The notes below the pieces were generated by a model that was given only the letters and a program-made list of their open reading frames with translations, made no database searches and was not told where the DNA came from. Source: Prevotellaceae bacterium HUN156 (GTDB lineage: Bacteria > Bacteroidota > Bacteroidia > Bacteroidales > Bacteroidaceae). From it: a stretch of 64,000 nt of DNA. Below are positions 1-51,617 of this stretch, piece by piece; position 1 is the stretch's first letter; every line of letters begins with the position of its first letter. The translations under genes were made by a program, and so were the position numbers. The stretch covers positions 1 to 64,000 of the forward strand of contig FPIT01000004.1 of assembly GCA_900119285.1 (NCBI GenBank). Direction: 5' to 3'.

Positions 1-490
1 GAAAAGGACGAAAATTTTAGAATAAAATTTAGTTTTCGGGAAATTTAGTTATTTTCGATATTTTCGGGATACAAAATAGTTTTTCGGGAAATAGTACATG
101 TATGGTAGAAGTATGGTATATGTTGAGGAAACATATACCATGCTTCAAATGCCGATATACAAAGGGATTGAGGGCTGTTATGGTATATGGTTACATGTTT
201 TCGGGAAATCATTAAGAGCATCTGAGAAATATAGCTGATACAGCTCTGAATACAGCTAACTCAGCGCTGAGATAGCTGTTCTCGCACTCCAATAGTGCCA
301 CTTTTGGAGGCTAATAGTTATTGTATAGAAGGTTAATAGTTATTGTATTATGATGCTAAAGTGGCTCTTTTATAAGGCACAATTTGTTTGCAGCCTGAAT
401 CCGATGAGTTTGCAGGCTGAATTCAATGAGTTTGCACGCATAATTCGAAGGGTTTGACGGCACTTTTCTCATCGAATTATGCCGTCAAAC
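1..490. repeat. Dispersed structured non-coding element, copy A
   Basis: No gene is visible in this stretch. It carries A/T-rich text with 'ttttcgggaaat' phrases, a 12-bp perfect hairpin (113-124 with 130-141), repeated 'cagct' and 'aatagttattgta' units near 230-345, and roughly 22-bp units containing 'gtttgcacgcataattcgaag' near 410-460. The same blocks recur in the same order and orientation around 32213-32710, so this is a family of about 0.5 kb elements. The far end (458-490) is itself an inverted repeat, gtttgacggca paired with tgccgtcaaac. Function is unknown; it may be a relic of a mobile element or a structured RNA. Confidence 0.6.
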
Positions 491-640
491 TATCTCTTTG
501 TTAGTCCTACAACGGCAAAGGGTGATATCGTGGGTCTTGTGGAACGCGGCCTTCTTAACGAATTCGCTTTTAATAAGGTAAAAAGAGGCTATGTGAGAAG
601 TGAACATTTTGAAGAAGCTGTCAAACCAATCTTAAAGTAA
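479..640 (+). pseudogene. Truncated C-terminal tail of a winged-helix (Fic-like) protein
   Basis: An open frame of 53 codons starts with an ATG that belongs to the flanking repeat and then reads SPTTAKGDIVGLVERGLL, which resembles the winged-helix tail of Fic-family or related regulators, followed by a short basic stretch and a TAA stop. The 5' part of the gene is missing and is replaced by the repeat element. I infer a gene decapitated by insertion or deletion. The family assignment is tentative because only the tail remains. Confidence 0.4.
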
Positions 641-673
641 TTCTTTCCAATGCTTAAAGAATTGGAAAGAATT
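639..673 (+). terminator. Inverted repeat after the truncated gene
   Basis: aattctttccaat (639-651) pairs perfectly with attggaaagaatt (661-673). The right arm is followed by another copy of ttggaaaga. It is placed directly at the stop codon of the broken gene, so it was probably its terminator. Confidence 0.45.
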
Positions 674-727
674 GGAAAGAAATAGTAAATGGCATATAAT
701 TGTTTAGTCATCTTTTTCTTGGATTAT

Positions 728-771
728 ATGATCAGCGAGGTATTTTTGTAAAATATCTCGCTGGTTTCTTT
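728..771 (+). repeat. Hairpin repeat, left flank of the KilA-N gene
   Basis: The stretch atgatcagcgaggtattt ... aaatatctcgctggtttct forms a stem (agcgaggtattt with aaatatctcgct) followed by a T-run. An almost identical copy lies at 1650-1693, directly after the KilA-N gene. Each copy follows a gene end, so it can act as a terminator; as a pair they bracket one gene. Confidence 0.6.
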
Positions 772-791
772 TTTATTTATAAATTGTTTTG

Positions 792-799
792 TACCTTTG
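792..799 (+). promoter_or_regulatory. -7 box of the KilA-N gene promoter
   Basis: TACCTTTG matches the Bacteroidetes -7 consensus TAnnTTTG and lies about 25 bases before the start codon of the KilA-N gene. The -33 box is less clear because the upstream sequence is a T-run belonging to the hairpin repeat. Confidence 0.55.
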
Positions 800-821
800 T
801 ATTAAATAACCGAAACAGTAT

Positions 822-1634
822 ATGGCAAAGATAATAGTACAGAATACAGAGATAACCGTCCTGTCGCACGATAACAAGGACTACATATCACTAACCGATA
901 TGGCTAATGGCAAGCAAAGTGAAAGCCGTGCTGCCGATGTTATCAAGAACTGGATTCGTACCAGATACACGATAGAATTTCTTGGAACATGGGAGATGAT
1001 TCACAACCCGAATTTCAAAGTGGTCGAATTTGACCACTTTAGAATGCAGGCAGGCTTGCCGAGTTTCGTCATGAGTGTGAGCGAGTGGATTGAGAAAACT
1101 AATGCCATTGGCATTATTGTTAAGAAAGGACGATATGGTGGCACCTATGCCTTCAAGGATATTGCCTTCGAGTTTGGTACTGCTATCAGTGTACCTTTCA
1201 AGCTCTATCTCATTGAAGAGTTCCAGCGTCTCAAATCTGACGAACAAAAGCAACTCGAATGGTCGGCCAAGCGTGAACTCTCCAAAATCAATTACCGCAT
1301 ACATACTGATGCCATCAAGAGCAACCTCATTCCTGCAGAAGTAACTCGTGAGCAAGCTGCGTTTAAATATGCAGAGGAAGCCGATGTACTTAATGTGGCG
1401 ATGTTTGGCATGACAGCAAAGCAATGGCGAGAGGCTAATCCTGACCTCAAAGGTAATATCCGAGACTATGCCACTATCAACGAACTCATTTGTCTGTCAA
1501 ATATGGAGAATATCAATGCTGTACTCATCAATGACGGCATGTCACAAGGCGAACGACTCGTTAAGCTCAATCAAATAGCTATCCAGCAGATGCAAGTTCT
1601 GGAGGATAATGAAAGTAGGAAATTGCTGAAGTAA
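822..1634 (+). CDS. KilA-N domain protein
   Basis: This 270-residue protein carries an N-terminal KilA-N type DNA-binding domain (about residues 10-125), recognised from the order of YISLTDMA, the W-x-R-T-R-x-T-I-E-F-L-G segment near 44-55 and the closing GRYGGTYAFKDIAFEFG block at 103-119. The C-terminal half is helical and has no motif I can name. KilA-N proteins come from phages and are common as single accessory genes in Bacteroidetes; their role is not well established. The gene has its own promoter and is framed by two copies of a 44-bp hairpin repeat, so it looks like a one-gene cassette. Base composition and sense of transcription match the next cluster, but a separate promoter and terminator make it an independent unit. 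Confidence 0.85.
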   Translation: MAKIIVQNTEITVLSHDNKDYISLTDMANGKQSESRAADVIKNWIRTRYTIEFLGTWEMIHNPNFKVVEFDHFRMQAGLPSFVMSVSEWIEKTNAIGIIVKKGRYGGTYAFKDIAFEFGTAISVPFKLYLIEEFQRLKSDEQKQLEWSAKRELSKINYRIHTDAIKSNLIPAEVTREQAAFKYAEEADVLNVAMFGMTAKQWREANPDLKGNIRDYATINELICLSNMENINAVLINDGMSQGERLVKLNQIAIQQMQVLEDNESRKLLK

Positions 1635-1649
1635 ATGATTCTTTTATAG

Positions 1650-1693
1650 ATGATCAGCGAGGTATTTATATAAAATATCTCGTTGGTTTCTCT
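1650..1693 (+). repeat. Hairpin repeat, right flank of the KilA-N gene
   Basis: Second copy of the 728-771 repeat with only a few differences in the loop and near the ends. The stem agcgaggtattt/aaatatctcgtt followed by a T-rich tail suggests a terminator for the KilA-N gene. Confidence 0.6.
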
Positions 1694-1710
1694 TAAAATA
1701 ATTTGGTATT

Positions 1711-1745
1711 TATTTTGTATTGTTCTCGCTTATTCGTAACTTTGC
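1711..1745 (+). promoter_or_regulatory. Promoter-bearing dispersed repeat (short copy)
   Basis: This segment ends in TAACTTTGC, a -7 box, and closely matches the right part of the modules at 44561-44660 and 51521-51617 (tattttgtattg.tctcgcttattcg). It lies about 340 bases ahead of the LytTR gene and may drive the signalling cluster with a long leader. Confidence 0.5.
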
Positions 1746-2083
1746 ATTTGGTCCACGCTGATGATACGTTTCAAAAGTATTGGATGAGTGGGGTGACATA
1801 CATATTTAAGGCATTTGCTATACGCTTTGACTCTGTAGGACTTTGCAATCTCTAATGGATAGCCAGTATGTAAAGGTAGATGTTCCGTGGAATAGTATAT
1901 ATTATGTATAATACTATTCAATGTGGGACGATAACCTTTTCGTTTTGACTATCTGGACAAAGCAAAGACGCTCATAGAGTGCCGTGAGCGATATGCATTG
2001 GCTCCACGTCTTTTTATGTGTGTACCAAATCTAAAACGTAAAGAAATGGAACTGAGGCTGCCAGTTTCGATGATGAATGTGAT
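1746..2083. other. Intergenic leader or gene debris
   Basis: No convincing gene. Short open frames exist on both strands, including about 60 codons ending just inside the next gene, but none shows a recognisable motif or an upstream start with spacing like its neighbours. If the promoter at 1711-1745 is active this is a long 5' leader of the LytTR gene. Confidence 0.35.
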
Positions 2084-2443
2084 ATGTTACAGATTTATTT
2101 TAACTCACGTGACAAACTGATTCGCTTGGACATCCAAAAGATTGTCTATTTTGAAGGCGATGGCAACTATACCTATATAGTTACTGCCAACAAGCAGAAA
2201 GTATGCATCACGCTAAATCTATCCCATACAGAAGACGCTTTGGCTGCTCAGTTAGGCGAGAATGCCAAACGCTTTATGCGTATTGGCAAACGATTTATCG
2301 TCAATATGAACTATATCTATCAAATAGATATCCAGAAACAGGTGCTAATGCTATCTGACTGTGAGCATTTTGTTTTTCAGATGCCTGTATCGAAAGAAGC
2401 GCTGAAAGCAGTTAAGGAACTTGTTATAAAAACTAAAATATAA
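2084..2443 (+). CDS. Stand-alone LytTR DNA-binding protein
   Basis: The 119 residues are essentially one LytTR domain: an N-terminal strand region with DIQKIVYFEGDGNYTYI (about 16-32) and the family hallmark GKRFIVNMNYI at 68-78. LytTR domains bind DNA through beta-strands and usually follow a receiver domain; here there is no receiver, so control must come from another partner or from abundance. It is the first gene of a co-directional cluster with FHA, caspase, PP2C and kinase genes, and the next gene begins six bases after its stop. I infer that it regulates this cluster or its target genes. The start is the first ATG of the domain; no upstream alternative adds a recognisable segment. Confidence 0.85.
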   Translation: MLQIYFNSRDKLIRLDIQKIVYFEGDGNYTYIVTANKQKVCITLNLSHTEDALAAQLGENAKRFMRIGKRFIVNMNYIYQIDIQKQVLMLSDCEHFVFQMPVSKEALKAVKELVIKTKI

Positions 2444-2449
2444 TTGGGT

Positions 2450-3130
2450 ATGGAAATCATAATCGGCCGAGACCAACAAACTCGTCAGTTGTGTGTTATC
2501 AAAGATGGTAATTCTAGACTCTATGGACAATCCAATAGTGTCCCCATGGACGTCAGTCGTCATCATTTCAGTATTCAACCAGCTGGTGCAGGGAAGTGGA
2601 TTGTCAAGAATCTTAATGAGCGTAATGTTACCTTCGTGAATGGTCTTGCTATCGAGAGCAAAACTATATCCGAGAACGACAAGATAGAACTGGGAAACTC
2701 CCATTATCTGTTCTCTTGGGCAGCATTGCAGGAACCGAAAGTTGAGACAATTGACATTAAATCATTAAAACGAGTTTGGGATGAGTACCAAGAAAATGAC
2801 ATCTCAATAAGAAATCATCAAAAGACAAATGGCTTGTGGGCAAGTATCCCTTTAGGTTTTTCTATGTTTGGTGGTATTATTGCTGGAGTCGCTCCTGATA
2901 TTCGTGAGGTCGCACTTGTCTTTACTGGTATTGCTTTTGTTACATTCCTTTATGGTCTATACAAACGATCGCAAGACAACAGTACTATTGAATTGAAAGA
3001 AAATCAGGACGATTTCGATAGAAAATGGATTTGCCCAAAGTGTAAGCATCCGCTCACTTGCTTTAGGAGTTACACCATCTTATCGCAAAGTGATGCTTGC
3101 CCCTATTGTAAAACAAAGTATAAGAAGTAA
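2450..3130 (+). CDS. FHA domain protein with two membrane helices and a C-terminal zinc ribbon
   Basis: 226 residues from the ATG at 2450 (a TTG two codons upstream is less likely). An N-terminal forkhead-associated fold is shown by IGRD near residue 5, SRHHFSI at 36-42 and an N-rich turn near 56-64. Two hydrophobic helices follow (about 130-148 and 153-172), then a basic tail with a zinc ribbon formed by C195-x2-C198 and C217-x2-C220. FHA domains bind phosphothreonine, so this is a likely membrane-anchored reader for the kinase encoded downstream. It follows the LytTR gene by six bases and is followed by a gap holding a fresh promoter, so it may form a two-gene unit with the LytTR gene. Confidence 0.8.
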   Translation: MEIIIGRDQQTRQLCVIKDGNSRLYGQSNSVPMDVSRHHFSIQPAGAGKWIVKNLNERNVTFVNGLAIESKTISENDKIELGNSHYLFSWAALQEPKVETIDIKSLKRVWDEYQENDISIRNHQKTNGLWASIPLGFSMFGGIIAGVAPDIREVALVFTGIAFVTFLYGLYKRSQDNSTIELKENQDDFDRKWICPKCKHPLTCFRSYTILSQSDACPYCKTKYKK

Positions 3131-3178
3131 TTTCGTACAGTAAACAGGGTATTTCCTACAGGATACCTTTATAATATT

Positions 3179-3209
3179 TGCACAATCATAGAATTCTACT
3201 ACCTTTGCA
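3179..3209 (+). promoter_or_regulatory. Promoter of the acidic protein/caspase/FHA/PP2C unit
   Basis: TTTG at 3179-3182 and TACCTTTG at 3202-3209 are separated by 19 bases, a good match to the Bacteroidetes promoter. It lies 22 bases before the next start codon and gives the second half of the cluster its own transcription start. Confidence 0.6.
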
Positions 3210-3231
3210 ACAGATTTAAAACAATAACGAT

Positions 3232-4035
3232 ATGAACGAAACAACTATTTTCGAGAAGCGTCCAACTACTAACGGACAAAATGAGAGTAAAAAAGTAGGT
3301 GGCTCATGGAAGCATGTAACTCTTGGTGGTGTATCAGGCATCTTGATGGGTGCAGGTTTGTTGTACGCAGGACAAACAGTAGCTGCAACAAAGCCAGAAG
3401 ATAGCGCAGCCGAAGAACCAGTAGATGAGTCTGCTGCATCACAGCAGGAGGCTTCTCCTCTGCCTGTTGCTCAGATGCACAATGAGATGTCTTTTGGTGA
3501 GGCTTTTGCTGCTGCTCGTGCAGAAGTTGGACCTGGCGCTGTATTCATTTGGCATGGTGGCATCTATAATACCTATACAGCAGAAGAGTGGAATGCTATG
3601 ACACCAGAACAGAAGAGTGACTTTGCGCAGCAGGTAAATCCTGAAATCCCTGCCCATCAGCTTGCCGGACCTACGGATGCTCAACCTGATGTTGCAGTGC
3701 AGACTGCATCTGAAGATGTTCAGGTCGTTGACGAGCAGACAGCGCAAACAAGTGATGCTGACGCTGACGTACATATTGTTGGTCAGGGAGAGATAGAAGG
3801 TCATGCGGCAGTAGCTCTTGATATGAATAATGATGGTGATGCTGACGTGGCTATTATTGACGTTAACGACAATCATGTACTGGATAATGATGATGTTGTT
3901 GTTGACACTCAAGGTAATATGGCTCGTTATGGCGATTTGATAGATGCTGATCCCAATCAGATGGCAGCTATGGAGAATCCCGATGTAGCTCCTGACATGC
4001 CTGACTATATGAACGATGCCTTGATAGATGCATAA
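3232..4035 (+). CDS. Acidic membrane-anchored protein with EF-hand-like calcium motifs
   Basis: The 267-residue protein has a short basic cytoplasmic start, one hydrophobic segment at about 29-51 and a strongly acidic remainder that should lie outside the inner membrane. A conserved-looking block near 87-135 (F-x-E-A-F-A-A-A-R-A-E, then W-H-G-G-I-Y-x-T-Y-x-x-x-E-W) is followed by an Asp/Asn-rich tail with D197-x-N-x-D-G-D-x-D205 and D210-x-N-x-N-x-x-x-D218-x-x-D221, both resembling calcium-binding loops. I do not know a named function. Three bases separate it from the caspase gene, whose product carries an EF-hand loop as well, so a shared calcium response is a reasonable inference. Confidence 0.7.
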   Translation: MNETTIFEKRPTTNGQNESKKVGGSWKHVTLGGVSGILMGAGLLYAGQTVAATKPEDSAAEEPVDESAASQQEASPLPVAQMHNEMSFGEAFAAARAEVGPGAVFIWHGGIYNTYTAEEWNAMTPEQKSDFAQQVNPEIPAHQLAGPTDAQPDVAVQTASEDVQVVDEQTAQTSDADADVHIVGQGEIEGHAAVALDMNNDGDADVAIIDVNDNHVLDNDDVVVDTQGNMARYGDLIDADPNQMAAMENPDVAPDMPDYMNDALIDA

Positions 4036-4038
4036 GCG

Positions 4039-4743
4039 ATGAAAAAGCATCTGTTGATAGTATGGCTAATGCTATGCTCTTTCCAGTTAGAGGCTAAGGT
4101 GTATCTGGTTTGTGTTGGTATCGCGGACTATCCTGGCACCAAGAACGACCTACGCATCAGCGACAATGATGCCAAGACTATAGCTAAGGTTTTTAGCGTC
4201 ACCAAAGATGCTTCTGTTCAGGTTCTGATCAATGAGGAAGCGACGCAATCGGCCTTACTAAGCACTATGCACACTTCGTTTGCTGATGCGCAGAGTGACG
4301 ATGCTGTTATTCTCTATTTCAGCGGACATGGCTCACCAGGCTCTTTAGTGTGTTATGATGGACAGCTAACCTATCAACATATTTTTAAGATGCTGAAAGG
4401 CTGTAAGGCTAATCGAAAGATAATAATTGCCGATGCTTGTTTTTCTGGCAAGATGCGTACTGGAGGTCAGCAGACGAGCAATTATAACTCTCAGAATGTG
4501 ATCCTCTTCCTTTCCTCTCGAACTACTGAGTATTCGAGTGAGACAGATTATAAGAATAGTTTATTTACTATTTTCTTAGAGCGAGGCTTGCGCGGTGGGG
4601 CAGATACGAACAGAGATAGAATCATTACTGCTCGTGAGCTATACAATTTTGTTCACAAGGGTGTGACAGAAGCCTCTGGTAACAAACAACATCCTGTCAT
4701 GTGGGGCAAGTTCGACAACAATATGACAGTCATTAAGTGGTAA
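4039..4743 (+). CDS. Caspase-fold (peptidase C14) protein with an EF-hand loop
   Basis: 234 residues. The caspase p20 core shows YFSGHG with catalytic His97 and IIADACFSG with catalytic Cys134; SDNDAK near 41-46 is typical of the first helix. The C-terminal part contains DTNRDRIITARE (189-200), a 12-residue loop matching the EF-hand pattern with D1, N3, D5, I8 and E12. The N-terminus (about 1-19) looks like a signal peptide, which would place the protease in the periplasm. Bacterial caspase-like proteases cut after basic residues in studied cases and some need calcium; neither has been shown here. It sits between an acidic calcium-motif protein and an FHA protein. Confidence 0.85.
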   Translation: MKKHLLIVWLMLCSFQLEAKVYLVCVGIADYPGTKNDLRISDNDAKTIAKVFSVTKDASVQVLINEEATQSALLSTMHTSFADAQSDDAVILYFSGHGSPGSLVCYDGQLTYQHIFKMLKGCKANRKIIIADACFSGKMRTGGQQTSNYNSQNVILFLSSRTTEYSSETDYKNSLFTIFLERGLRGGADTNRDRIITARELYNFVHKGVTEASGNKQHPVMWGKFDNNMTVIKW

Positions 4744-4747
4744 CAAT

Positions 4748-5350
4748 ATGCAGACAAAAAGAATCAAATGTCCATCCTGTGGAGTTGTACTTGATGTTCA
4801 AAACTCAAAGAACGAAACCGTCAAGCAGTTCACTTGTCCAAAGTGCAAGGCCGTTCTACAGGTAAAGTTCCCTCGCCAACAAGAACCATTGGAGGCTAAG
4901 ACTTACTATGCTCCACCAAAGCAACCTATAGCGGATAATGGTGCTACGCAGTTGGCTGGCGGTGGTGGTGAAACACAATTGGTAGGTGCCAGTTATGGTG
5001 CCACACAATTAGTCACAGATACGCCAAAGATCAGTACTTCAGCCAAATTATTGTATGATGGAATCTGCTACCCATTGGAGGAAGGACAGAATATTGTTGG
5101 CAGAAAGGGAAACACCTCGAAAGCAACAGTACAGATTGCAACGGACGATCGCTATATGAGTCGCCAGCATTGCTCAATTACTGTAACCACACTGCCTGAC
5201 GGTACTAAGAAAGCTGTGCTTAGCAATTATCAAAACAAGAATCTTACTTCTGTTGATGGTCAGGAAATAGAAACGGGCGATGCCATCCGACTGACTGACG
5301 GCAATAGCATCACGATGGGGCATACCACCATAATCTTTAAAATCAAGTAG
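4748..5350 (+). CDS. Zinc-ribbon and FHA domain protein with three TQL sites
   Basis: 200 residues. C8-x2-C11 and C30-x2-C33 form an N-terminal zinc ribbon. A flexible linker holds three copies of a Thr-Gln-Leu motif (T67, T76, T86) in Gly/Ala surroundings. The C-terminal FHA domain is marked by VGRKG near 117-121 and SRQHCSI at 138-144. Small FHA proteins such as GarA of actinobacteria are phosphorylated on Thr in the N-terminal tail and then fold onto their own FHA domain; the TQL repeats could be such sites for the kinase at 6668. That is inference. No membrane segment is seen, so it should be cytoplasmic. Confidence 0.82.
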   Translation: MQTKRIKCPSCGVVLDVQNSKNETVKQFTCPKCKAVLQVKFPRQQEPLEAKTYYAPPKQPIADNGATQLAGGGGETQLVGASYGATQLVTDTPKISTSAKLLYDGICYPLEEGQNIVGRKGNTSKATVQIATDDRYMSRQHCSITVTTLPDGTKKAVLSNYQNKNLTSVDGQEIETGDAIRLTDGNSITMGHTTIIFKIK

Positions 5351-5353
5351 TCT

Positions 5354-6265
5354 ATGAAGATTTTATTATATCCACCACTCTCCATTCATGAGTTAGGCCA
5401 TCGAGACAATCAGGAGGACTCCATTGCTCAGTGGGATAATCGTCTTTTTGCCCTCTGCGATGGTATGGGGGGCCATGAAAAGGGAGAGGTGGCCAGTCAG
5501 ACAGTTTGTCAGGCTATAGGCGAATGGTATCAAAACAGAGCGATTCATCCTCTTGGCAAACCACAAGTAGAAGATGCCCTTGCCTACGCTTACGCGCAGT
5601 TGGATAAGAAAGATGATGGTGCTCTTAAGAAGATGGGCACCACGCTTACCTTATTATATATAGGTATTGAAGGAGCTGTTGCTGCTCATATGGGTGACAG
5701 CCGTATCTATCATATACGACCAGCTGAGGGACTGCTTTATCAATCTCGTGACCACTCTTTGGCTTTCGATTTGTATCAAGCAGGCGAGATTAGCTATGAG
5801 GAAATGTTAAACTATGGTCAAAAGAATGTCATCACCCGTGCTATGACTCCTGGTGAGGATAATCGTATGCGTCCTGATATCATACATATTACAGATATCC
5901 AATCTGACGATTATTTCTATATGTGCTCTGATGGCATGTTAGAACGGATGAGTAATGATGAACTTGTTGCCTTATTGTCTTCTGATGCTTCAGACGAAGA
6001 AAAACGTCAACAACTAATTAGTGCTACAGCCAACAATCAGGACAATCACTCTGCTTGGCTAATTCATATTGAGGATGTCGTCAATGAAGAAGGGGATGAA
6101 CAACTGGTCAATGAAGAGCCAAATGCTCGCTGCAATGCTGTCAATATTATTCCTCAATCAGTCTCAGAGCCAGATGACGATGTTGTCATTGTAAAAGAGG
6201 CTCCAAAGAAACAATCCCTATTCCAACGAATAAAGAAACTTATCCCATTTACTAAGAACAAATAG
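5354..6265 (+). CDS. PP2C-type Ser/Thr protein phosphatase
   Basis: 303 residues. Motifs of the metal-dependent PPM/PP2C family appear in order: GHRDNQEDS at 15-23, DGMGGHEKG at 36-44, a MGDSRIY strand and a YMCSDGM block in which Asp residues bind two metals. The domain ends near residue 235; an acidic then basic C-terminal extension of about 65 residues has no motif. It would remove phosphates placed by the neighbouring kinase, so kinase and phosphatase form an opposing pair. The start lies three bases after the stop of the FHA gene, which indicates coupled expression. Confidence 0.9.
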   Translation: MKILLYPPLSIHELGHRDNQEDSIAQWDNRLFALCDGMGGHEKGEVASQTVCQAIGEWYQNRAIHPLGKPQVEDALAYAYAQLDKKDDGALKKMGTTLTLLYIGIEGAVAAHMGDSRIYHIRPAEGLLYQSRDHSLAFDLYQAGEISYEEMLNYGQKNVITRAMTPGEDNRMRPDIIHITDIQSDDYFYMCSDGMLERMSNDELVALLSSDASDEEKRQQLISATANNQDNHSAWLIHIEDVVNEEGDEQLVNEEPNARCNAVNIIPQSVSEPDDDVVIVKEAPKKQSLFQRIKKLIPFTKNK

Positions 6266-6284
6266 TAAAAAAATATAAAATCAT

Positions 6285-6665
6285 ATGGAAAATATAGCAC
6301 AACAATTAATTGATAACATTCGCACTCTCTTTGCAAAATTGATTGAAGAAGAGGAAATTCGCACAAATATACGACCAATACGTACTATATATCCTCAAAA
6401 TCATATATATGTCAGTATAGCGAAAGAACTATATAATAAGGCTTTGGAGTTGGAAGCTATTAATAAAAAGTACTCTACAGATCAATTAAAAGATGTTATG
6501 GGTGATGAGGTTGATATGGTTGGGCAATATAACTATGATTATAAAAAGAATACTATGATACCCAAAGCTGTTAGTCTAACCAAATTGCAGAATTTGATGC
6601 ATAATGCTACATATCATATTCAAATGTATTTCTTTGATGTTCTTGGTGATATTAAAATAGACTGA
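6285..6665 (+). CDS. Small protein of unknown function in the kinase cluster
   Basis: 126 residues, no signal peptide, no membrane segment, no motif I recognise. It has a helical, charged N-terminus and a Tyr/Asn-rich middle (YNYDYKKN). It lies 19 bases after the PP2C gene and only two bases before the kinase gene, so it is almost certainly co-expressed with both. Position suggests an adaptor, inhibitor or substrate of the kinase/phosphatase pair; nothing in the sequence decides between these. Confidence 0.65.
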   Translation: MENIAQQLIDNIRTLFAKLIEEEEIRTNIRPIRTIYPQNHIYVSIAKELYNKALELEAINKKYSTDQLKDVMGDEVDMVGQYNYDYKKNTMIPKAVSLTKLQNLMHNATYHIQMYFFDVLGDIKID

Positions 6666-6667
6666 TT

Positions 6668-7780
6668 ATGCAACAACTACAACCTAACACCACCTTGCAG
6701 GGTGGAAAATACAGAATAGTACGTGTGCTGGGGCAGGGGGGCTTCGGCATCACATACTTGGCTGTGCAAACATCATTGCAAAGACAAGTAGCAATCAAGG
6801 AGTTCTTTATGAAAGATTTCTGTTCTCGTGATGAAGCAACATTGTCAATGCAGACTCCCTCGACAGGTAGTAACAAACAAGTTGAGCAATATAAGAGAAA
6901 ATTCATCAAGGAAGCAAGGAACCTAGCAAGGCTCAATCATCCTAATATCATCAGTGTAATTGAGGTGTTTGAGGAAAATAATACCATCTATTATGTGATG
7001 CCTTATCTTCCTGGTGGATCCTTGCAAGATTATGTCAAATTGCATGGCGCATTGTCTGAATCAGAGGCAATAAAATATGTAAAACAAATTGCCAAGGCTC
7101 TTGAATATATGCACGAAGAACAGCACATGTGCCATCTTGATGTGAAGCCTGCCAATATTCTGCTTGATGATAATGGTAATGCTACGCTAATTGACTTTGG
7201 AATTTCGAAGAACTATGATTCTTCTGGCTTTGAGACAACCACAACGCCAGTAGGGATGAGTGAAGGCTATGCACCTATAGAACAATATCAGCAAAATGTG
7301 GAGGAGTTTTCTCCTGTCAGTGATGTATATGCGCTTGGTGCTACACTTTATTTCCTACTTCATGGTAAACGCCCCGTTAATGCTCCAAGCAGAGCAGGCG
7401 GAAGCGCTTTGATGATGCAAAAAAGTCTATCACAAAATGTTAAAGACATCATTAATGCTTCGATGAAGGTTTCTAAACGTGAAAGAGCGAAGAACGTTGA
7501 TGTTTTTTTGAAAGAGGGCTATTTTGCAGAGCAAAAAAACAAACCATTTGATAATTATGTAATGGATGACGAAGAAACTATTATTGAAAAGCCATTCAAA
7601 CAAGATTATGCGGTTGAAAACGTGGAGGTGAGTGATAGTTCGTCAATTTGGAAATATGTTGTTGGGGCATTACTAATTGCGGTTCTGATTGCGGGCTACA
7701 TATATTACAGTAATAGTAGTTCACTAACAAGTAAACCACAAGTAGAAAAAGCGAGTTATCAAGATTATTTTGAAAAATAG
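6668..7780 (+). CDS. Membrane-anchored Ser/Thr protein kinase (Hanks type)
   Basis: 370 residues. The kinase core has the glycine loop LGQGGFG (21-27), the lysine of VAIKEF at 44, catalytic HLDVKPAN with Asp158, Lys160 and Asn163, and DFG starting at Asp176. The usual Arg of HRD is Leu, so activation may not need loop phosphorylation. The domain ends near 285. A spacer with a short acidic TIIEK patch leads to a single membrane helix (about 330-347) and only 23 residues beyond it, so there is no large sensor domain. Together with the upstream PP2C and two FHA proteins it forms a write/erase/read set. A truncated second copy of its start follows at 8750. Confidence 0.9.
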   Translation: MQQLQPNTTLQGGKYRIVRVLGQGGFGITYLAVQTSLQRQVAIKEFFMKDFCSRDEATLSMQTPSTGSNKQVEQYKRKFIKEARNLARLNHPNIISVIEVFEENNTIYYVMPYLPGGSLQDYVKLHGALSESEAIKYVKQIAKALEYMHEEQHMCHLDVKPANILLDDNGNATLIDFGISKNYDSSGFETTTTPVGMSEGYAPIEQYQQNVEEFSPVSDVYALGATLYFLLHGKRPVNAPSRAGGSALMMQKSLSQNVKDIINASMKVSKRERAKNVDVFLKEGYFAEQKNKPFDNYVMDDEETIIEKPFKQDYAVENVEVSDSSSIWKYVVGALLIAVLIAGYIYYSNSSSLTSKPQVEKASYQDYFEK

Positions 7781-7805
7781 TAAAAAACTAAAATATAAAT
7801 ATAAT

Positions 7806-8723
7806 ATGAAGACAATATTAAAATCATTGGTGCTGATATTTATCACATCATTTTGCTTGGTTTCGTGTGATGAAAACAAGAAACAATTAAGGGAACAAGT
7901 TCAGAAATTCAACAATACATGCCCAATTTCATTAGGGGGGATAATGACGATTAATAGTGTTGTTCTTCAAGATAACACTGTGGAAATGAAATTTTCTATA
8001 AACGAATCCATAACTCCAATCTCTCTAATTAATAGTCATAAAGAAGATTTTAAAGAGAATCTAAGCATGATTTTGTCAAGAGAATCAAGTAAGATTATGG
8101 TTGAAAACATTGTTAAGGCAAATGCAAGTTTTGTCGCTATTTTTGTAGGAGAACAATCTGGTACTCGTGCAGAATTAGATTTTACTTCCGATGAGCTTAG
8201 AACAGCTCAAGAAAGATTCTCCAATATGACAGAGTCTCAAAAATTGATAGCGAGCAATATAGTAGGGATGAAGATGAGATTACCTGCTAAGGTTGATGAT
8301 ATAACAACGATGACAGGACTTTCCATTACACCTTCTGCTTTAGTATATAAATACGAAGTGAATGATTATGAAACAGGTGAAAGCATAAATCAATTTGTAG
8401 GATTGATGAAAAATATAACAATGTCTCAAATGGCTGCACAGATAGCACAGGATGGTATTATGGGTGAGAGAAACAGAAAATTCTATGAGGCATTAATTGA
8501 TTGCGGTCAAGGAGTTAAAGTTGAGTATCATGAAAGTAATACTGGAAATCGAGCTACATTTGATATTTCTATTTCTGAAATAAAAGATATTTTAAGTGGA
8601 AAGTATCAAAAGAATGCCCCAACAATGGAAGATTGGAATAATTTAGGCAAAGCAGTAGAAGAATTAGAACAGGTTTATGGAGAAGACTCAGTTGGATATT
8701 ATGAAGAAACCGATTATTATTAA
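7806..8723 (+). CDS. Lipoprotein of unknown function
   Basis: 305 residues from the ATG at 7806, chosen because it gives a clean lipoprotein signal peptide ending in LVSC (Cys22); an upstream in-frame start would overlap the kinase stop and add a charged leader. The mature part is mixed alpha/beta without a motif I can name, ends in a Glu/Tyr-rich tail, and should be anchored in the envelope. It is the last intact gene of the kinase cluster and follows the kinase by 25 bases. It could be an outer partner for the kinase or a target of the pathway. Low similarity to anything I recognise; function unassigned. Confidence 0.7.
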   Translation: MKTILKSLVLIFITSFCLVSCDENKKQLREQVQKFNNTCPISLGGIMTINSVVLQDNTVEMKFSINESITPISLINSHKEDFKENLSMILSRESSKIMVENIVKANASFVAIFVGEQSGTRAELDFTSDELRTAQERFSNMTESQKLIASNIVGMKMRLPAKVDDITTMTGLSITPSALVYKYEVNDYETGESINQFVGLMKNITMSQMAAQIAQDGIMGERNRKFYEALIDCGQGVKVEYHESNTGNRATFDISISEIKDILSGKYQKNAPTMEDWNNLGKAVEELEQVYGEDSVGYYEETDYY

Positions 8724-8749
8724 TATTTCAATTATCTGAGAAAGTGAAT

Positions 8750-8839
8750 ATGCAACTCCTACAACCTAACACCACCTTGCAGGGCGGAAAATACAGAATA
8801 GAGCGAGTGTTGGGGCAAGGATGTCATAGGGACAGGTGA
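8750..8839 (+). pseudogene. Truncated start of a second Ser/Thr kinase gene
   Basis: The first 24 codons repeat the beginning of the kinase gene at 6668 almost exactly (MQLLQPNTTLQGG, then YRIERVLGQG), with a few silent and replacement changes. The frame then breaks into a sequence beginning tcatagggacag and stops at 8837-8839. The same 12 bases mark the break of another truncated gene at 23802-23813. This is a remnant of a duplicated kinase that was cut at a small REP-like sequence. Confidence 0.75.
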
Positions 8840-12983: not shown

Positions 12984-13721
12984 ATGGGATTATTAGAAGG
13001 AAAGACAGCGCTGATTACTGGTGCTGCACGTGGTATCGGTAAGGCTATTGCCTTGAAGTTTGCTGCTGAGGGTGCTAATATTGCATTCACTGACTTGCAG
13101 GTTAACGAAGAAACTGAGAAGGAAATTGCCGCTTTAGGTGTCAAGGCTAAGAGCTATGCCTCTAATGCTGCCGACTTCGCTCAGACCGAGGAAGTTGTTA
13201 AGGCTGTAAAGGAAGAGTTCGGTGCTATTGATATTCTGGTCAACAATGCTGGTATCACTAAGGACGGTCTGATGCTTCGCATGACCGAGCAGCAGTGGGA
13301 TGCAGTTATCGCTGTTAATTTGAAGTCTGCATTCAATTTCATCCACGCTTGTGTACCTGTTATGATGCGTCAGCGTGGTGGTTCTATCATCAATATGGCT
13401 TCTGTTGTAGGTGTTCATGGTAATGCTGGTCAGGCCAACTATGCCGCTTCTAAGGCTGGTCTTATTGCTCTGGCTAAGTCTATTGGTCAGGAGATGGGTC
13501 CAAAGGGTATCCGTGCTAATGCTATTGCCCCTGGTTTCATTGAGACAGCTATGACTGCAGCTCTGCCTGAGGAAGTACGTAACGAGTGGAAGAACAAGAT
13601 TCCTCTCCGTCGCGGTGGTCAGGTAGAGGATATCGCTAATGTTGCTACCTTCTTGGCATCTGATATGTCAAGCTATGTTAGCGGTCAGGTTATCCAGGTT
13701 GATGGTGGTATGAATATGTAA
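12984..13721 (+). CDS. fabG: 3-oxoacyl-ACP reductase
   Basis: 245 residues, a classical short-chain dehydrogenase/reductase of fatty-acid synthesis that reduces 3-oxoacyl-ACP with NADPH. The Rossmann motif TGAARGIG lies at 12-19, NNAG at 87-90, and the catalytic set is Ser140, Tyr153 and Lys157 (YAASK), with Asn112 in AVNLKS. The C-terminus GQVIQVDGGMNM is typical of FabG. It follows the TetR gene by 76 bases, most of which is a 7-bp repeat array, and ends before a clear terminator. The cell may hold other FabG-like enzymes, so the main biosynthetic role is likely but not certain. Confidence 0.9.
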   Translation: MGLLEGKTALITGAARGIGKAIALKFAAEGANIAFTDLQVNEETEKEIAALGVKAKSYASNAADFAQTEEVVKAVKEEFGAIDILVNNAGITKDGLMLRMTEQQWDAVIAVNLKSAFNFIHACVPVMMRQRGGSIINMASVVGVHGNAGQANYAASKAGLIALAKSIGQEMGPKGIRANAIAPGFIETAMTAALPEEVRNEWKNKIPLRRGGQVEDIANVATFLASDMSSYVSGQVIQVDGGMNM

Positions 13722-13749
13722 TCATATTGTCTTCCACAGACACTTTTAT

Positions 13750-13800
13750 CCTCATTTGTTTCAAAGAAACGTAAATTTTCTTGAGACAAATGAGGGTTTT
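13750..13800 (+). terminator. Terminator after fabG
   Basis: cctcatttgt (13750-13759) pairs with acaaatgagg (13786-13795), with a further inner stem, and is followed by a T-run. Confidence 0.7.
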
Positions 13801-13853
13801 TCGTAAATAATTACTATTTTTGTGGCATTAAATCAAAATCTAACCGAATAGCT

Positions 13854-15020
13854 ATGGAAGAAAAGATGCTTAATGCCGATGCTCTTGGCTATCTTGATGA
13901 AGCCATGTTTACCTCTTCTTTGATTAGTAAGAAGGAGCGCGAAACCAAAGAAACTGATTGGGAAAATGTTTATCCCTGTACCAAGGCTGAGACCGAGCAG
14001 ATGGAACAGCTGCTCCAAAAAGCGAATGCTGTGGTTGAAGATCCTCGCGACCAAGCGTATAGCGAGCGCTATCAGGCTTTGTCTGAGGTAGTCGATTGGT
14101 CAAAGAAACGATATGCGTCGTGGAAATGGTCGCTCATTGCTGGCGCTTTGTTGGGCGCAGGCATCTTCTATTATTTTTATAACGACCAGCAGAAGGACAT
14201 CGCTCAGGCTAAGGTGGAACAGGAACAGGTGAACCAGTGGAAAGAAGCGGAAGTAGCTGAGGTTCCTTATAGTGTCTGTGCTACTGAGCATGCCAAGGAT
14301 GACTATGCCATGCGCCTGACATCGGCAGAGAGGTATAAAATATATAAGCTCGTTGACTTGAAGGCCTCTGTTGAGACTGCTGAAAAGAGTGTCAAAGAGT
14401 ATCAGCATCAGGCCGATACGGCTAAAGTTCAGAAGAACATAGACAAGTATCAGCAACAGGTGGAGGCTTCGGCTAATAGTGTGGCCAAGTATCGTGCTGA
14501 ATACGATTCCATCAATGCCATGGACTTTGCGCAGGTTCACGCCATGGCGATAAGTGATATGGATAAGCATGTGGATAATCAGGAGTCATGGGGCAACACC
14601 CTTTATGGATATATGATATTCCTGTTAGTCCTTATTCCTCTTTATATTATCACGGGCTATCCTCATGGTTATACCATTACGCGTCATCGTCGCCGTTCCG
14701 GTTGTCTCAATATCTTCCGCAAGGTAGGCTTTGGTTTGGCATCTTTCTGTTTCGGCACAGGTGTCGCTATGAATCTGTTGTCCGGCTATAGCGAGAAGAC
14801 TACCGATCCTAATGGCAGTACGCAAACAGAGAAAAAGAGTGACATCGGCAATGTCCTGATTGTTGCATTGAAGGTAATCTTGATGATTGTCGGAGCCTTT
14901 ATCTTCTGCATCGTAGCTTCACTGGTGATGACGATAGAGACCATTTCCGGACTTATTGAAAACTTCAACTGGTCTGGTTGGATGCGCAAGTTGTTTCCTT
15001 CTAAGAAAAAGGAAGACTAA
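13854..15020 (+). CDS. Membrane protein with a coiled-coil domain, function unknown
   Basis: 388 residues. A soluble N-terminal part (1-88) leads to one membrane helix (about 91-108), then a long Gln/Lys/Glu-rich segment (110-240) that reads as coiled coil, then three hydrophobic helices (about 252-268, 284-303 and 335-358) and a basic C-terminal tail. The coiled coil would lie between helices one and two, outside the membrane. I do not recognise a family motif. The gene has a TATTTTTG -7-like sequence upstream and stands just before the pseudouridine synthase gene, whose promoter overlaps the gap. Confidence 0.6.
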   Translation: MEEKMLNADALGYLDEAMFTSSLISKKERETKETDWENVYPCTKAETEQMEQLLQKANAVVEDPRDQAYSERYQALSEVVDWSKKRYASWKWSLIAGALLGAGIFYYFYNDQQKDIAQAKVEQEQVNQWKEAEVAEVPYSVCATEHAKDDYAMRLTSAERYKIYKLVDLKASVETAEKSVKEYQHQADTAKVQKNIDKYQQQVEASANSVAKYRAEYDSINAMDFAQVHAMAISDMDKHVDNQESWGNTLYGYMIFLLVLIPLYIITGYPHGYTITRHRRRSGCLNIFRKVGFGLASFCFGTGVAMNLLSGYSEKTTDPNGSTQTEKKSDIGNVLIVALKVILMIVGAFIFCIVASLVMTIETISGLIENFNWSGWMRKLFPSKKKED

Positions 15021-17357: not shown

Positions 17358-20300
17358 GCCGATGGCGAGATACATCATCTGGGCTATGGTCGTTGGAATT
17401 TGGATAAGATTACTGCCCATGCACAGGTTAGCAATGGCAAGGCTCATGCCCAGTTGCTCAGTCATAATGCGCTGCTCAATGGTGCAGTCAACTTCGATGC
17501 CCTGCTTTCTACTACCCGTTTCGATGGTACTCTGTCAACCGACTTCCGTACCCTCGACCTTTATAAGCTGGGCTTCGTAGAGAATCCGTTATCTATCGGT
17601 ATGTGTGGTCATTTCGATGTACAGTCCGACTTAAAGCTGAATCACAACATCATGGGATTGGTCAACGACCTTACCATCAGTGATTCCAGTCATGTCTATC
17701 GTCCCACCGCCGTTGATTTGTTGCTCAAGACAACACCCGATACTACCTATGCCCATGTCCAGAGTGGCGACTTCATCGTGAAGCTCGATGCCAGTGGCAA
17801 CTATGAGCAGATTATGCAGAAGTTCATGGTGTTAGGTGATTCCGCCATGGCACAGCTGGAGCGTAAGACTATCAATCAGCCCGCTCTGCGCCATCTATTA
17901 CCCGATATGAAGGTCCACATGGAGAGTCAGAGCGACAATCCTTTAGCTACCATTCTTAAGAGTAGTGCAGATGTTGAGTTTAAGAATATGCTGTTCGACC
18001 TCTCAACATCGCCCGTTACTGGTATTAATGGTAATGGTTATCTCCATTCGCTGGAAGTTAGCGATGTTCGTATTGATACGATTACCTTTAATCTGATACA
18101 ACGTGCCGAGCGACTATCCTTTAGCGGACAGGTGCGCAACAATAAGAAGAATCCGCAGTTTGTCTTCAACGCCCTGTTCGATGGCATTCTGCAAGAGCGT
18201 GGTGCCACCCTTGGCGTGCGCTATTACGATGCTGACGGCAAGTTGGGTGCCCGCATTGGTGCTGCTGCCGAGGTGGTGGATAATGGTATCAATATCCATC
18301 TTGTTCCTGCTCGTCCTACCCTTGGCTATAAGGAGTTTGCTGTTAACCAAGACAACTACATCTTCCTCGGTGCTTCCGGCAAGGTGAAAGCCAAGGTCGA
18401 TTTGCGTGCCGATGATGGTATGGGTGTGAAGATATACTCTGAGGAGAGTGATCCCAGCGCTTTGCAAGACATCACCATCTCGCTCCATCAGTTCAATCTG
18501 GAGGAGATTACCTCCGTCATTCCTTATGCTCCCCGCATGTCGGGTATGATGAGTGGTGACTTCCACGTTATCCAGGATGCCAACAAACAGATATCCGTTG
18601 TCAGCGATATGGGTGTGCGCAATATGACCTATGAGCGCTGTCCTATCGGCAATATCAGTACCGAGCTTGTCTATCTGCAAAAGGAGGATGATGCCCATGC
18701 TGTTGAGGCTCGCCTGATGATGGACGATGAAGAGATAGGACTCTTCTCGGGTACCTATTATAATACAGTTACAAATGATGAGGGCAAGACTACCGAAGGA
18801 CATTTTGATGCTAAGTTGGAGTTGGAACATCTACCTCTGTCTATCATCAATGGTTTTGTGCCCGACCAGCTCTGTGGCTTGCAGGGTTATGGCGAAGGCG
18901 AGCTGTCTATCAAGGGTACGCCGTCCAGACCGCAGGTTAATGGTGAGATATACCTCTCTCAGTCTTATCTGGAGAGTATTCCTTATGGTGTTAAGTTGCG
19001 CTTTGATGATGACCCTGTGCGCATACAAAACTCTAACTTATTGTTTGAAAACTTCACCGTCTATGCCCATAACGACAATCCGCTGAACGTACAAGGCAAT
19101 GTCAACTTCAGCGACCTCGACCATATCATGGTCAACCTGCGTATGCAGGCTAACAATTTCCAGATTGTCGGTGCCAAGGAGCATGCCAAGAGTGTTGCCT
19201 ATGGTAAGGCCTTCGTCAATGTCTTTGCCAACGTCACTGGTCCGCTTGAAAACCTCAATATGCGTGGTCGTCTGGATGTACTGGGTTCTACCGATATGGG
19301 CTATATCCTGCGCGACTCGCCTATCACTACCGATAATCAGCTCGACCAGTTGGTGAAGTTTACCGACTTTAGCGATACCACCCAAACCATTGTCCAGCGT
19401 CCACCTATCAATGGCTTCCGCATGGATATGACGATGAATGTATCTAAGGGTGCACATATTGTTGCCTACCTGAATGCTGACCATTCTAACTATATCGACT
19501 TGATGGGCGGTGGCACGCTGCGTATGCTTTATAGTCCTGCCGACAATCTGCAGTTGACAGGTCGCTATACCCTCTCTAATGGTGAGATGAAGTATGCGCT
19601 ACCTATCATCCCGCTGAAGACCTTTATCATCCAGGATGGTTCGTATATCGAGTTTACGGGTGAGCCGATGAATCCTACGCTTAACATTACTGCTGTCGAG
19701 CATACCAAAGCCACCGTTACAAGTACCAATGGAGTAGGGCGCAGTGTGGCCTTCGATTGTGGCGTAGTTATCACTCGTACCCTGAATGATATGGGACTTG
19801 AGTTTACGCTCGATGCACCCGAAGATATGCAGTTGCATGGTGAGTTGCAGACGATGGGCGTAGAACAACGAGGAAAGTTGGCAGTAACGATGCTTACCAC
19901 TGGTATGTATCTGGCCGATGGCAATACGCAGCCGTTCTCTATGAACTCTGCCCTCAGCTCGTTCCTCAGTTCTGAGATTAGCAACCTTACGGGCAATGCC
20001 CTGCGCACGCTCGACCTCTCCTTTGGCATGGACAACTCTACCGATGCTACGGGTGAGACCCATACCGACTACTCGTTTAAGTTTGCCAAGCGCTTCTTCA
20101 ACAACCGTTTGAAGCTGGCTGTGGGTGGTAAGGTTACCACGGGTGCCGAACTGCCTGGCAACCGCAACAACTCGTTCTTCGACAACGTATCACTGGAATA
20201 TCGCCTCGACGATACTGCCAATAAGTATCTCAGCCTCTTCTTCGAGAATAACTCTTACGACTGGCTCGATGGTTATACCCAGAAGTATGGTGGTGGCTTT

Positions 20301-20429
20301 ATCTGGCGTCGCACGTTGCAGAACTTCAAAGATATCTTCCGCTTCAAGGACGAGAGCCCGCTTGCTATGCCTGTTATTCGTCCTGTAGCTACTGACACTC
20401 TAAAAATAGAAAGACATGACAAGAAATAA
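17358..20429 (+). CDS. tamB: TamB-like protein, C-terminal part after an in-frame stop
   Basis: About 1023 codons in the same frame as the preceding piece; if translated alone the earliest likely start is the TTG at 17400. The C-terminal third holds the conserved TamB domain (former DUF490), seen as repeated G-x-L-x-x-x-G strands and the segment LSNGEMKYALPIIPLKTF, then SLEYRLDDTANKYLSLFFENN near the end. No further lesion is present, so the defect is recent. It overlaps the start of the TamL gene by 14 bases, showing a translation-coupled pair. Without a signal anchor this piece alone could not reach the periplasm. Confidence 0.8.
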   Translation, partial: ADGEIHHLGYGRWNLDKITAHAQVSNGKAHAQLLSHNALLNGAVNFDALLSTTRFDGTLSTDFRTLDLYKLGFVENPLSIGMCGHFDVQSDLKLNHNIMGLVNDLTISDSSHVYRPTAVDLLLKTTPDTTYAHVQSGDFIVKLDASGNYEQIMQKFMVLGDSAMAQLERKTINQPALRHLLPDMKVHMESQSDNPLATILKSSADVEFKNMLFDLSTSPVTGINGNGYLHSLEVSDVRIDTITFNLIQRAERLSFSGQVRNNKKNPQFVFNALFDGILQERGATLGVRYYDADGKLGARIGAAAEVVDNGINIHLVPARPTLGYKEFAVNQDNYIFLGASGKVKAKVDLRADDGMGVKIYSEESDPSALQDITISLHQFNLEEITSVIPYAPRMSGMMSGDFHVIQDANKQISVVSDMGVRNMTYERCPIGNISTELVYLQKEDDAHAVEARLMMDDEEIGLFSGTYYNTVTNDEGKTTEGHFDAKLELEHLPLSIINGFVPDQLCGLQGYGEGELSIKGTPSRPQVNGEIYLSQSYLESIPYGVKLRFDDDPVRIQNSNLLFENFTVYAHNDNPLNVQGNVNFSDLDHIMVNLRMQANNFQIVGAKEHAKSVAYGKAFVNVFANVTGPLENLNMRGRLDVLGSTDMGYILRDSPITTDNQLDQLVKFTDFSDTTQTIVQRPPINGFRMDMTMNVSKGAHIVAYLNADHSNYIDLMGGGTLRMLYSPADNLQLTGRYTLSNGEMKYALPIIPLKTFIIQDGSYIEFTGEPMNPTLNITAVEHTKATVTSTNGVGRSVAFDCGVVITRTLNDMGLEFTLDAPEDMQLHGELQTMGVEQRGKLAVTMLTTGMYLADGNTQPFSMNSALSSFLSSEISNLTGNALRTLDLSFGMDNSTDATGETHTDYSFKFAKRFFNNRLKLAVGGKVTTGAELPGNRNNSFFDNVSLEYRLDDTANKYLSLFFENNSYDWLDGYTQKYGGGFIWRRTLQNFKDIFRFKDESPLAMPVIRPVATDTLKIERHDKK

Positions 20430-44560: not shown

Positions 44561-44660
44561 TTTCGTAACTTTGACTTCGCCAAAGGTACTTTCGCTCGAC
44601 AATAAAAATAAAAAAATGTTTCTTTATTTTGTATTGTCCTCGCTTATTCGTAACTTTGTG
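44561..44660 (+). repeat. Promoter-bearing dispersed repeat, copy B
   Basis: tcgtaactttgacttcg at its start and cgcttattcgtaactttg at its end each hold a TAACTTTG -7 box; between them ctcgacaataaaaa and attttgtattgtcctcg form an inverted repeat. The closest relative is 51521-51617. It supplies the promoter of the DUF4827 gene. Confidence 0.65.
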
Positions 44661-51520: not shown

Positions 51521-51617
51521 TTGTACCTTTGACTTCGTCGAAGGCACTTTCGCTCGACAATAAAAACAAAACCTCGTTTTTGTTTTGTATTGTGCTCGCT
51601 TATTCGTACCTTTGCAG
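51521..51617 (+). repeat. Promoter-bearing dispersed repeat, copy C
   Basis: Starts with ttgtacctttgacttcg and ends with cgcttattcgtacctttgcagg; the two TACCTTTG boxes enclose ctcgacaataaaaacaaaac and gtttttgttttgtattgtgctcg, an inverted repeat. The right box would drive recF with a leader of about 95 bases made up by the next repeat. Confidence 0.65.

Follow-up and report, generated by a model that had tools for sequence, protein, structure and literature searches.

Bacterial caspases are mostly viewed as cytosolic enzymes of cell death or defence. The EACC1-caspase systems are multi-component caspase systems near the membrane that combine a constant with a variable part (Kaur et al. 2020, PMC7159879). 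The KKP module joins a PP2C phosphatase to adjacent kinases with variable C-termini, including cold-shock and FHA kinases, sits mostly in prophages, and is evidence that sets of PP2C and kinases can have antiphage activity (PMC11341870). In the PpkA-PppA-Fha pathway of type VI secretion systems (T6SS), a membrane Ser/Thr kinase, a PP2C phosphatase and an FHA reader are encoded in one cluster. In LytTR Regulatory Systems the gene for a bare LytTR protein is followed by one for a membrane protein; LytTR binds 9-bp direct repeats with a 12-bp spacer upstream of the promoter, and some bare LytTR proteins are kept inactive by the adjacent membrane protein (PMC6193735). The locus described here shares some arrangements with each of these systems, and we judge it, on balance, probable that it encodes one transmembrane threonine-phosphorylation pathway that controls a secreted caspase.

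The window, which is the whole 64-kb stretch of DNA analysed, begins a contig from a 2.8-Mb genome that is 99.6% complete. Its named close relatives comprise rumen Prevotella and metagenome bins of Bacteroidales. As the preliminary description had claimed, nine co-directional ORFs are present at 2084-8723, each as listed and all on the + strand, and carry LytTR, FHA, caspase, zinc-FHA, PP2C and kinase domains. The features of the locus are the following.

2084..2443, + strand: LytTR, a bare DNA-binding protein without a receiver domain (Pfam LytTR, 3.6e-15)
2444-3130, + strand: ORF of FHA-TM, likely gene 2450..3130 (Pfam FHA, 2.8e-10)
3132..3161, + strand: predicted LytTR operator, a direct repeat (repeat conservation and uniqueness in the genome)
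3177..3207, + strand: predicted Bacteroidota promoter, TTTG-N19-TACCTTTG, before the acidic protein/caspase operon (sequence reading)
3232..4035, + strand: acidic protein with calcium-type motifs (alignments; without a Pfam or PHROG family)
4039..4743, + strand: caspase (C14) with a signal-peptide-like N-terminal segment (Pfam Peptidase_C14, 1.5e-23)
4748..5350, + strand: Zn-FHA, a zinc-ribbon and FHA protein with GATQL/GETQL linker repeats (Pfam FHA, 1.1e-9)
5354..6265, + strand: PP2C-type Ser/Thr phosphatase (Pfam PP2C_2, 1.9e-11)
6285..6665, + strand: small protein of 126 aa in the kinase cassette (no family)
6668..7780, + strand: Ser/Thr kinase (Pfam Pkinase, 7e-46)
6668..6742, + strand: conserved kinase 5' block of about 75-80 bp (DNA comparison of kinase starts)
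7806..8723, + strand, from the likely ATG: lipoprotein with lipobox LVSC in the kinase cassette (sequence)
8750..8824, + strand: kinase-less orphan of the 5' block (96% match to the consensus over 72 bp)

All parts of the locus other than the acidic protein, the small protein and the lipoprotein are known families, and the phosphate writer, eraser, readers and DNA-binding output recognized earlier are real, with Pfam matches to Pkinase, PP2C_2, FHA (in two proteins) and LytTR. The phosphatase also matched the NCBIfam Stp1-like family at 2.1e-44, which is under that family's cut-off. FHA-TM has an N-terminal FHA domain, two predicted TM helices (131-149 and 155-173 by hydropathy) and a C-terminal zinc ribbon, and its likely ATG is at 2450 because its orthologues begin MEIII. 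In Zn-FHA the zinc-ribbon cysteine pairs CPSC/CPKC can be read from the sequence. The gaps had been called mostly small; one of 101 bp (3131-3231) contains the second predicted promoter, pointing to what are probably two transcription units, LytTR-FHA and acidic protein to lipoprotein. The segment at 8750-8824 is no gene; it repeats the kinase 5' end as an orphan.

Other genomes also keep these genes together. In 35 of the 38 loci that contain a small caspase of this type, profile searches recovered three or more further core families within 10 kb, using profiles that were built from loci of the genus, with outgroup loci left out of profile building. The exceptions are a caspase of the same type standing without the module and with none of these families (L050) and two partial loci, one on a 3.9-kb contig (L051) and one with two families (L089). 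The gene set is missing from fourteen loci whose caspases are longer, fused or more distant, two of which give only a weak LytTR match. The core consists of LytTR, FHA-TM, the acidic protein, the caspase, Zn-FHA and PP2C, plus at least one kinase; among the 38 loci LytTR gave a strong match in 26 and the acidic protein was found in 30. The module extends to at least six further families of the class, namely five Bacteroidales families, plus one partial, and one family from another order with two genomes (G583 and G640), and also to a plasmid of Runella rosea, its hosts being many gut and environmental Bacteroidota. Six module loci, all of one clade, adjoin the housekeeping gene ligA. The order of the core genes is reshuffled between groups and the core proteins co-diverge (r 0.83-0.94, reached in 0 of 500 permutations), so that the linkage looks selected rather than the result of recent copying. 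In G583 the PP2C and the caspase are fused into one polypeptide; the hydrophobic stretch that separates the two parts is below the TM threshold used. The idea of a single system, which had been set in advance to fall if the genes were not kept together in other genomes, thus survived, in altered gene orders, and the locus genes form one real unit. A chance neighbourhood of unrelated signalling genes, which one might suspect given that kinases, FHA proteins and PP2C are common families, is refuted by the conservation, the co-divergence, the PP2C-caspase fusion and the conserved operator described below, and we accord it next to no probability.

Not all nine genes belong to this core. The small protein and the lipoprotein, originally counted as members alongside the core genes, which keep their place, are part of a variable, swappable kinase cassette. 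The block of small protein, kinase and lipoprotein recurs in L028 behind another kinase, with 69% DNA identity over 2.3 kb, and that locus holds the only full-length homologue of the small protein, beside the same kinase and lipoprotein, the latter being 47% identical. Other loci have one to four kinases with C-termini of the TonB_C, WG, Sel1, FGE-sulfatase or DUF5991 type or of unknown type, and kinase domains that are 91-96% alike can bear unrelated C-termini.

The exchange of such cassettes may have left a trace at the kinase starts, where the first 75-80 bp are nearly invariant across loci before identity drops sharply. Where the amino acid agrees, the same codon is used in a fraction of 0.78 over codons 1-27 and of 0.45-0.54 further on, and at the starts of kinases without the block this fraction is about 0.50. 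Most core genes have values of 35-56% at their starts, and the start of the acidic protein shows some codon agreement (0.70). A translation-start constraint is unlikely to lie behind the block, since kinases without it and most core genes are without the codon agreement. Four orphan blocks stand without a kinase, at 8750-8824 in the window and in L029, L030 and L032. Most of the genomes surveyed are metagenome bins, in which short repeats can cause misjoins; the orphan in the window differs from the start of the window's own kinase, however, so a simple assembly collapse does not account for it. Site-specific recombination at the block is unsupported, because the break point differs among the four orphans, and among the array genes scanned no recombinase was seen save an IS1595 transposase near L031. 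The pattern fits kinase cassettes that would recombine or gene-convert at the block, and homologous recombination or gene conversion is the simpler account.

The range of kinase C-termini, with TonB_C, WG repeats, Sel1, FGE-sulfatase and others, would also suit a sensor of envelope or surface homeostasis, in which the kinases would respond to a damaged wall or surface, exported proteins would be trimmed by the caspase, and conflict between microbes would play no part. The lipoprotein partner and the ligA neighbourhood in one clade agree with such a sensor, and the fast turnover of the kinase cassettes, unusual for housekeeping sensors, speaks against it; we regard it as possible though somewhat doubtful. 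It is compatible with a phosphorylation pathway that controls a secreted caspase and differs from it in purpose only.

The caspase is predicted to adopt the caspase/legumain fold (AlphaFold pLDDT 78.8), has Foldseek matches to metacaspase, legumain and caspases, and carries a dyad of His97 (4327-4329) and Cys134 (4438-4440) that is invariant in 24 of 24 sequences, so that both the fold and the His-Cys dyad of family C14 are present. Nearly all of its orthologues have an N-terminal hydrophobic segment with a signal-peptidase-like site at its end, a call of export made from hydropathy only. The enzyme thus probably acts outside the cytosol, and a cytosolic suicide effector is unlikely given this N-terminus. 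Hydropathy further predicts one or two TM helices in most FHA-TM orthologues, often one C-terminal helix in PP2C orthologues, and in most kinases one helix after the kinase domain, the window kinase having a cytosolic kinase domain, a TM helix at 327-345 and a short tail. This layout suggests a complex in which phosphate would be written and read inside while the protease is held outside.

Such a topology bears on the question of defence. In an antiphage or self-killing system of this kind the kinases or the caspase would be kept silent by PP2C until infection frees them, in the manner of the KKP prophage module, and the succession of PP2C and several kinases resembles KKP (PMC11341870). PADLOC matches the caspase and the kinase, genes of the flanks and arrays match PDC-S22 (here the KilA-N flank), PDC-M64 (here the downstream flanking pair), PDC-S02, PDC-S31, PDC-S13 and AbiD, and the distribution is patchy, with any caspase match in 23 of 100 genomes of the genus. 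However, within the core the PADLOC matches to caspase, PP2C and kinase are generic, those of the kinase being generic to kinases, and the accessory neighbours are candidates only. The cold-shock kinase of KKP is absent, the caspase is apparently exported, and it found no match in 50,697 phage records, on which ground a phage origin of the module was rejected. Defence-like genes occur in or beside some arrays, and six loci lie beside ligA. Antiphage defence is possible but unsupported, and in our estimate unlikely.

FHA domains are phosphothreonine binders, and candidate sites for them recur in the partner proteins. An acidic-x-Thr-[Ile/Val/Leu] motif stands at the extreme N-terminus of most acidic proteins (NETTI, NEETI, NEDTI), and the linker of the window kinase, DDEETII, contains the motif EETI with Thr304 (7577-7579). 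Kinase linkers carry the motif in 17 of 35 cases, compared with 2.0 in shuffles (maximum 6), and the N-terminal regions of acidic proteins scanned in 13 of 22, compared with 0.8 (maximum 4). The Zn-FHA linker has other forms of the motif, GATQL and GETQL, and under the strict pattern it is not enriched (3 of 25, compared with 0.8 in shuffles). Because FHA domains bind phosphothreonine, the acidic-x-Thr-Ile/Val motifs are likely candidate FHA docking sites. The acidic protein follows its N-terminal NETTI with one Gly-rich TM-like segment and calcium-type DxNxDG motifs, and alignments reveal a conserved domain, FxEAFxxARxEVGPGGxFxWHGxxYxTYxxxEW; no Pfam or PHROG family matched it. Its tie to the caspase is a guess, because its structure model is poor (pLDDT 48).

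The predicted operator in the 101-bp gap, TTCGTACAG-N12-TTCCTACAG at 3132-3161, is a direct repeat with a 21-bp period. The repeat is kept in all eight orthologous gaps before the acidic protein, with the -7 box lying 68-69 bp away from where the operator repeats begin in each of these eight loci, and the site before the acidic protein is the sole perfect match in the 2.8-Mb genome. In the clade adjoining ligA the corresponding gap has another repeat of distinct sequence, likewise with a 21-bp period. The locus thus combines a receiver-less LytTR, an adjacent membrane protein gene and the repeat layout of LytTR Regulatory Systems, and by analogy with these FHA-TM would be well placed to hold LytTR inactive.

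The model that we favour starts from the gene linkage, domains, operator-like repeat, motifs and kinase block as they can be read from the DNA and its translations, and from these we infer the phosphorylation, binding, topology, protease control and signal. A signal would be sensed by membrane kinases, one or several, whose C-terminal domains vary. These would phosphorylate the acidic-x-Thr-[Ile/Val/Leu] motifs at three places, namely the linkers of the kinases themselves, the N-terminus of the acidic protein at its membrane anchor and the Zn-FHA linker. The two FHA proteins would bind these phosphothreonines and assemble the parts into a complex, which PP2C would reset. The complex would control the secreted caspase across the membrane, probably via the calcium-type domain of the acidic protein, and the bare LytTR, adjoining and perhaps held by FHA-TM, would activate the promoter at 3132-3207 that is predicted to serve the acidic protein, caspase, FHA, PP2C and kinases. 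Kinase cassettes would be exchanged via their shared 80-bp 5' block. More tentatively, and with rather less than even confidence, we propose that this is a bacterial system of a new category, in which a fixed core (LytTR, two FHA proteins, acidic protein, secreted caspase and PP2C) is combined with an array of interchangeable receptor kinases shuffled via the 80-bp block, so that varied outside signals would feed, by way of a common phosphothreonine code, into one exported caspase.

If the model is right, a threonine code on one side of the membrane is coupled to a caspase probably on the other, which would be a new use of a caspase, the swappable kinase array is a natural plug-in receptor system, and the Ser/Thr kinases of rumen Prevotella, on which no functional work was found in the literature searched, acquire a concrete role. 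The model names targets that can be tested, namely the threonines, the operator and the catalytic pair. Neither the curated families nor the open-access papers searched gave a match to this combination of genes, to a caspase of exported type within it or to the array of cassettes.

As in PpkA-PppA-Fha, kinase, PP2C and FHA protein are encoded together here. The locus might be a threonine phosphorylation pathway of a T6SS that now stands alone in some genomes. In the record of the Runella rosea plasmid NZ_CP030851 the core and a T6SS operon that includes ClpV occupy opposite ends, which adjoin if the plasmid is circular, and in G068 a module variant is divergent to NusG-ClpV-TssC genes. The genome of the window, 99.6% complete, is nevertheless without TssC or TssD; TssC occurs in just 3 of 21 module carriers, that of G049 being on another contig, and TssD and a close caspase co-occur in 2 of 100 genomes, about the chance level. 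With no T6SS genes in the window genome and no enrichment among carriers, a general T6SS link was rejected for the window and a minority association kept, and we consider this origin decidedly improbable. Compared with PpkA-PppA-Fha the module adds a secreted-type caspase, an acidic protein with calcium motifs, a second FHA protein and LytTR.

Like KKP, the module has a PP2C with adjacent kinases of variable C-termini, but its kinases are mostly membrane-bound, its FHA proteins are separate, a caspase is present and the phage records are unmatched; the window has one kinase, and Pfam scans found no cold-shock or FHA domains fused to kinases. It differs from LytTR Regulatory Systems in that its membrane protein carries FHA and a zinc ribbon and that the operator stands before the second operon, not before LytTR. 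Assignment to the EACC1 caspase systems was rejected on the scores of the caspase against NF047832 (75.3 and 77.8 bits, with a cut-off of 140) and on the missing partner, no EACC1 component having been found. Like those systems, it sets a constant beside a variable part near the membrane, but here it is the kinases that vary and not the caspase.

The DNA 5' of the LytTR gene, which appears non-coding, is alike between the two genomes compared, window positions 1741-2022 and positions 7133-7433 of module locus L031 being 71% alike over approximately 300 bp. Window positions 1647-1746 resemble 725-803, 44609-44658 and 51576-51616, and these are dispersed short repeats of 40-80 bp that are 80-90% alike. 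In locus L028, another bare LytTR gene lies 3' of the kinase array, at 13676-14056, and its resemblance to the core LytTR is weaker.

Additional or fused genes at other loci are as follows:
L116:9372-10937, minus strand, PP2C and caspase as a single fused protein
L029:11513-12793, L033:19221-20306 and L028:10848-11957, HipA, AbiD-like and YhcG nuclease genes, inside the kinase arrays or at their ends
L035:6932-7795, L036:7255-8145, L038:8027-8914 and L042:10081-11067, in the ligA-linked clade, a second acidic protein related to the main one and located 5' of it

Caspases fused to other domains are present in L092-L094, L118-L121 and L123-L124, in surroundings without the module.

The Runella rosea plasmid NZ_CP030851.1, an outgroup carrier, also contains a kinase gene and a muramidase gene at 19441-21665. 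This plasmid bears both the core and a T6SS (regions 1-6775 and 60587-75566).
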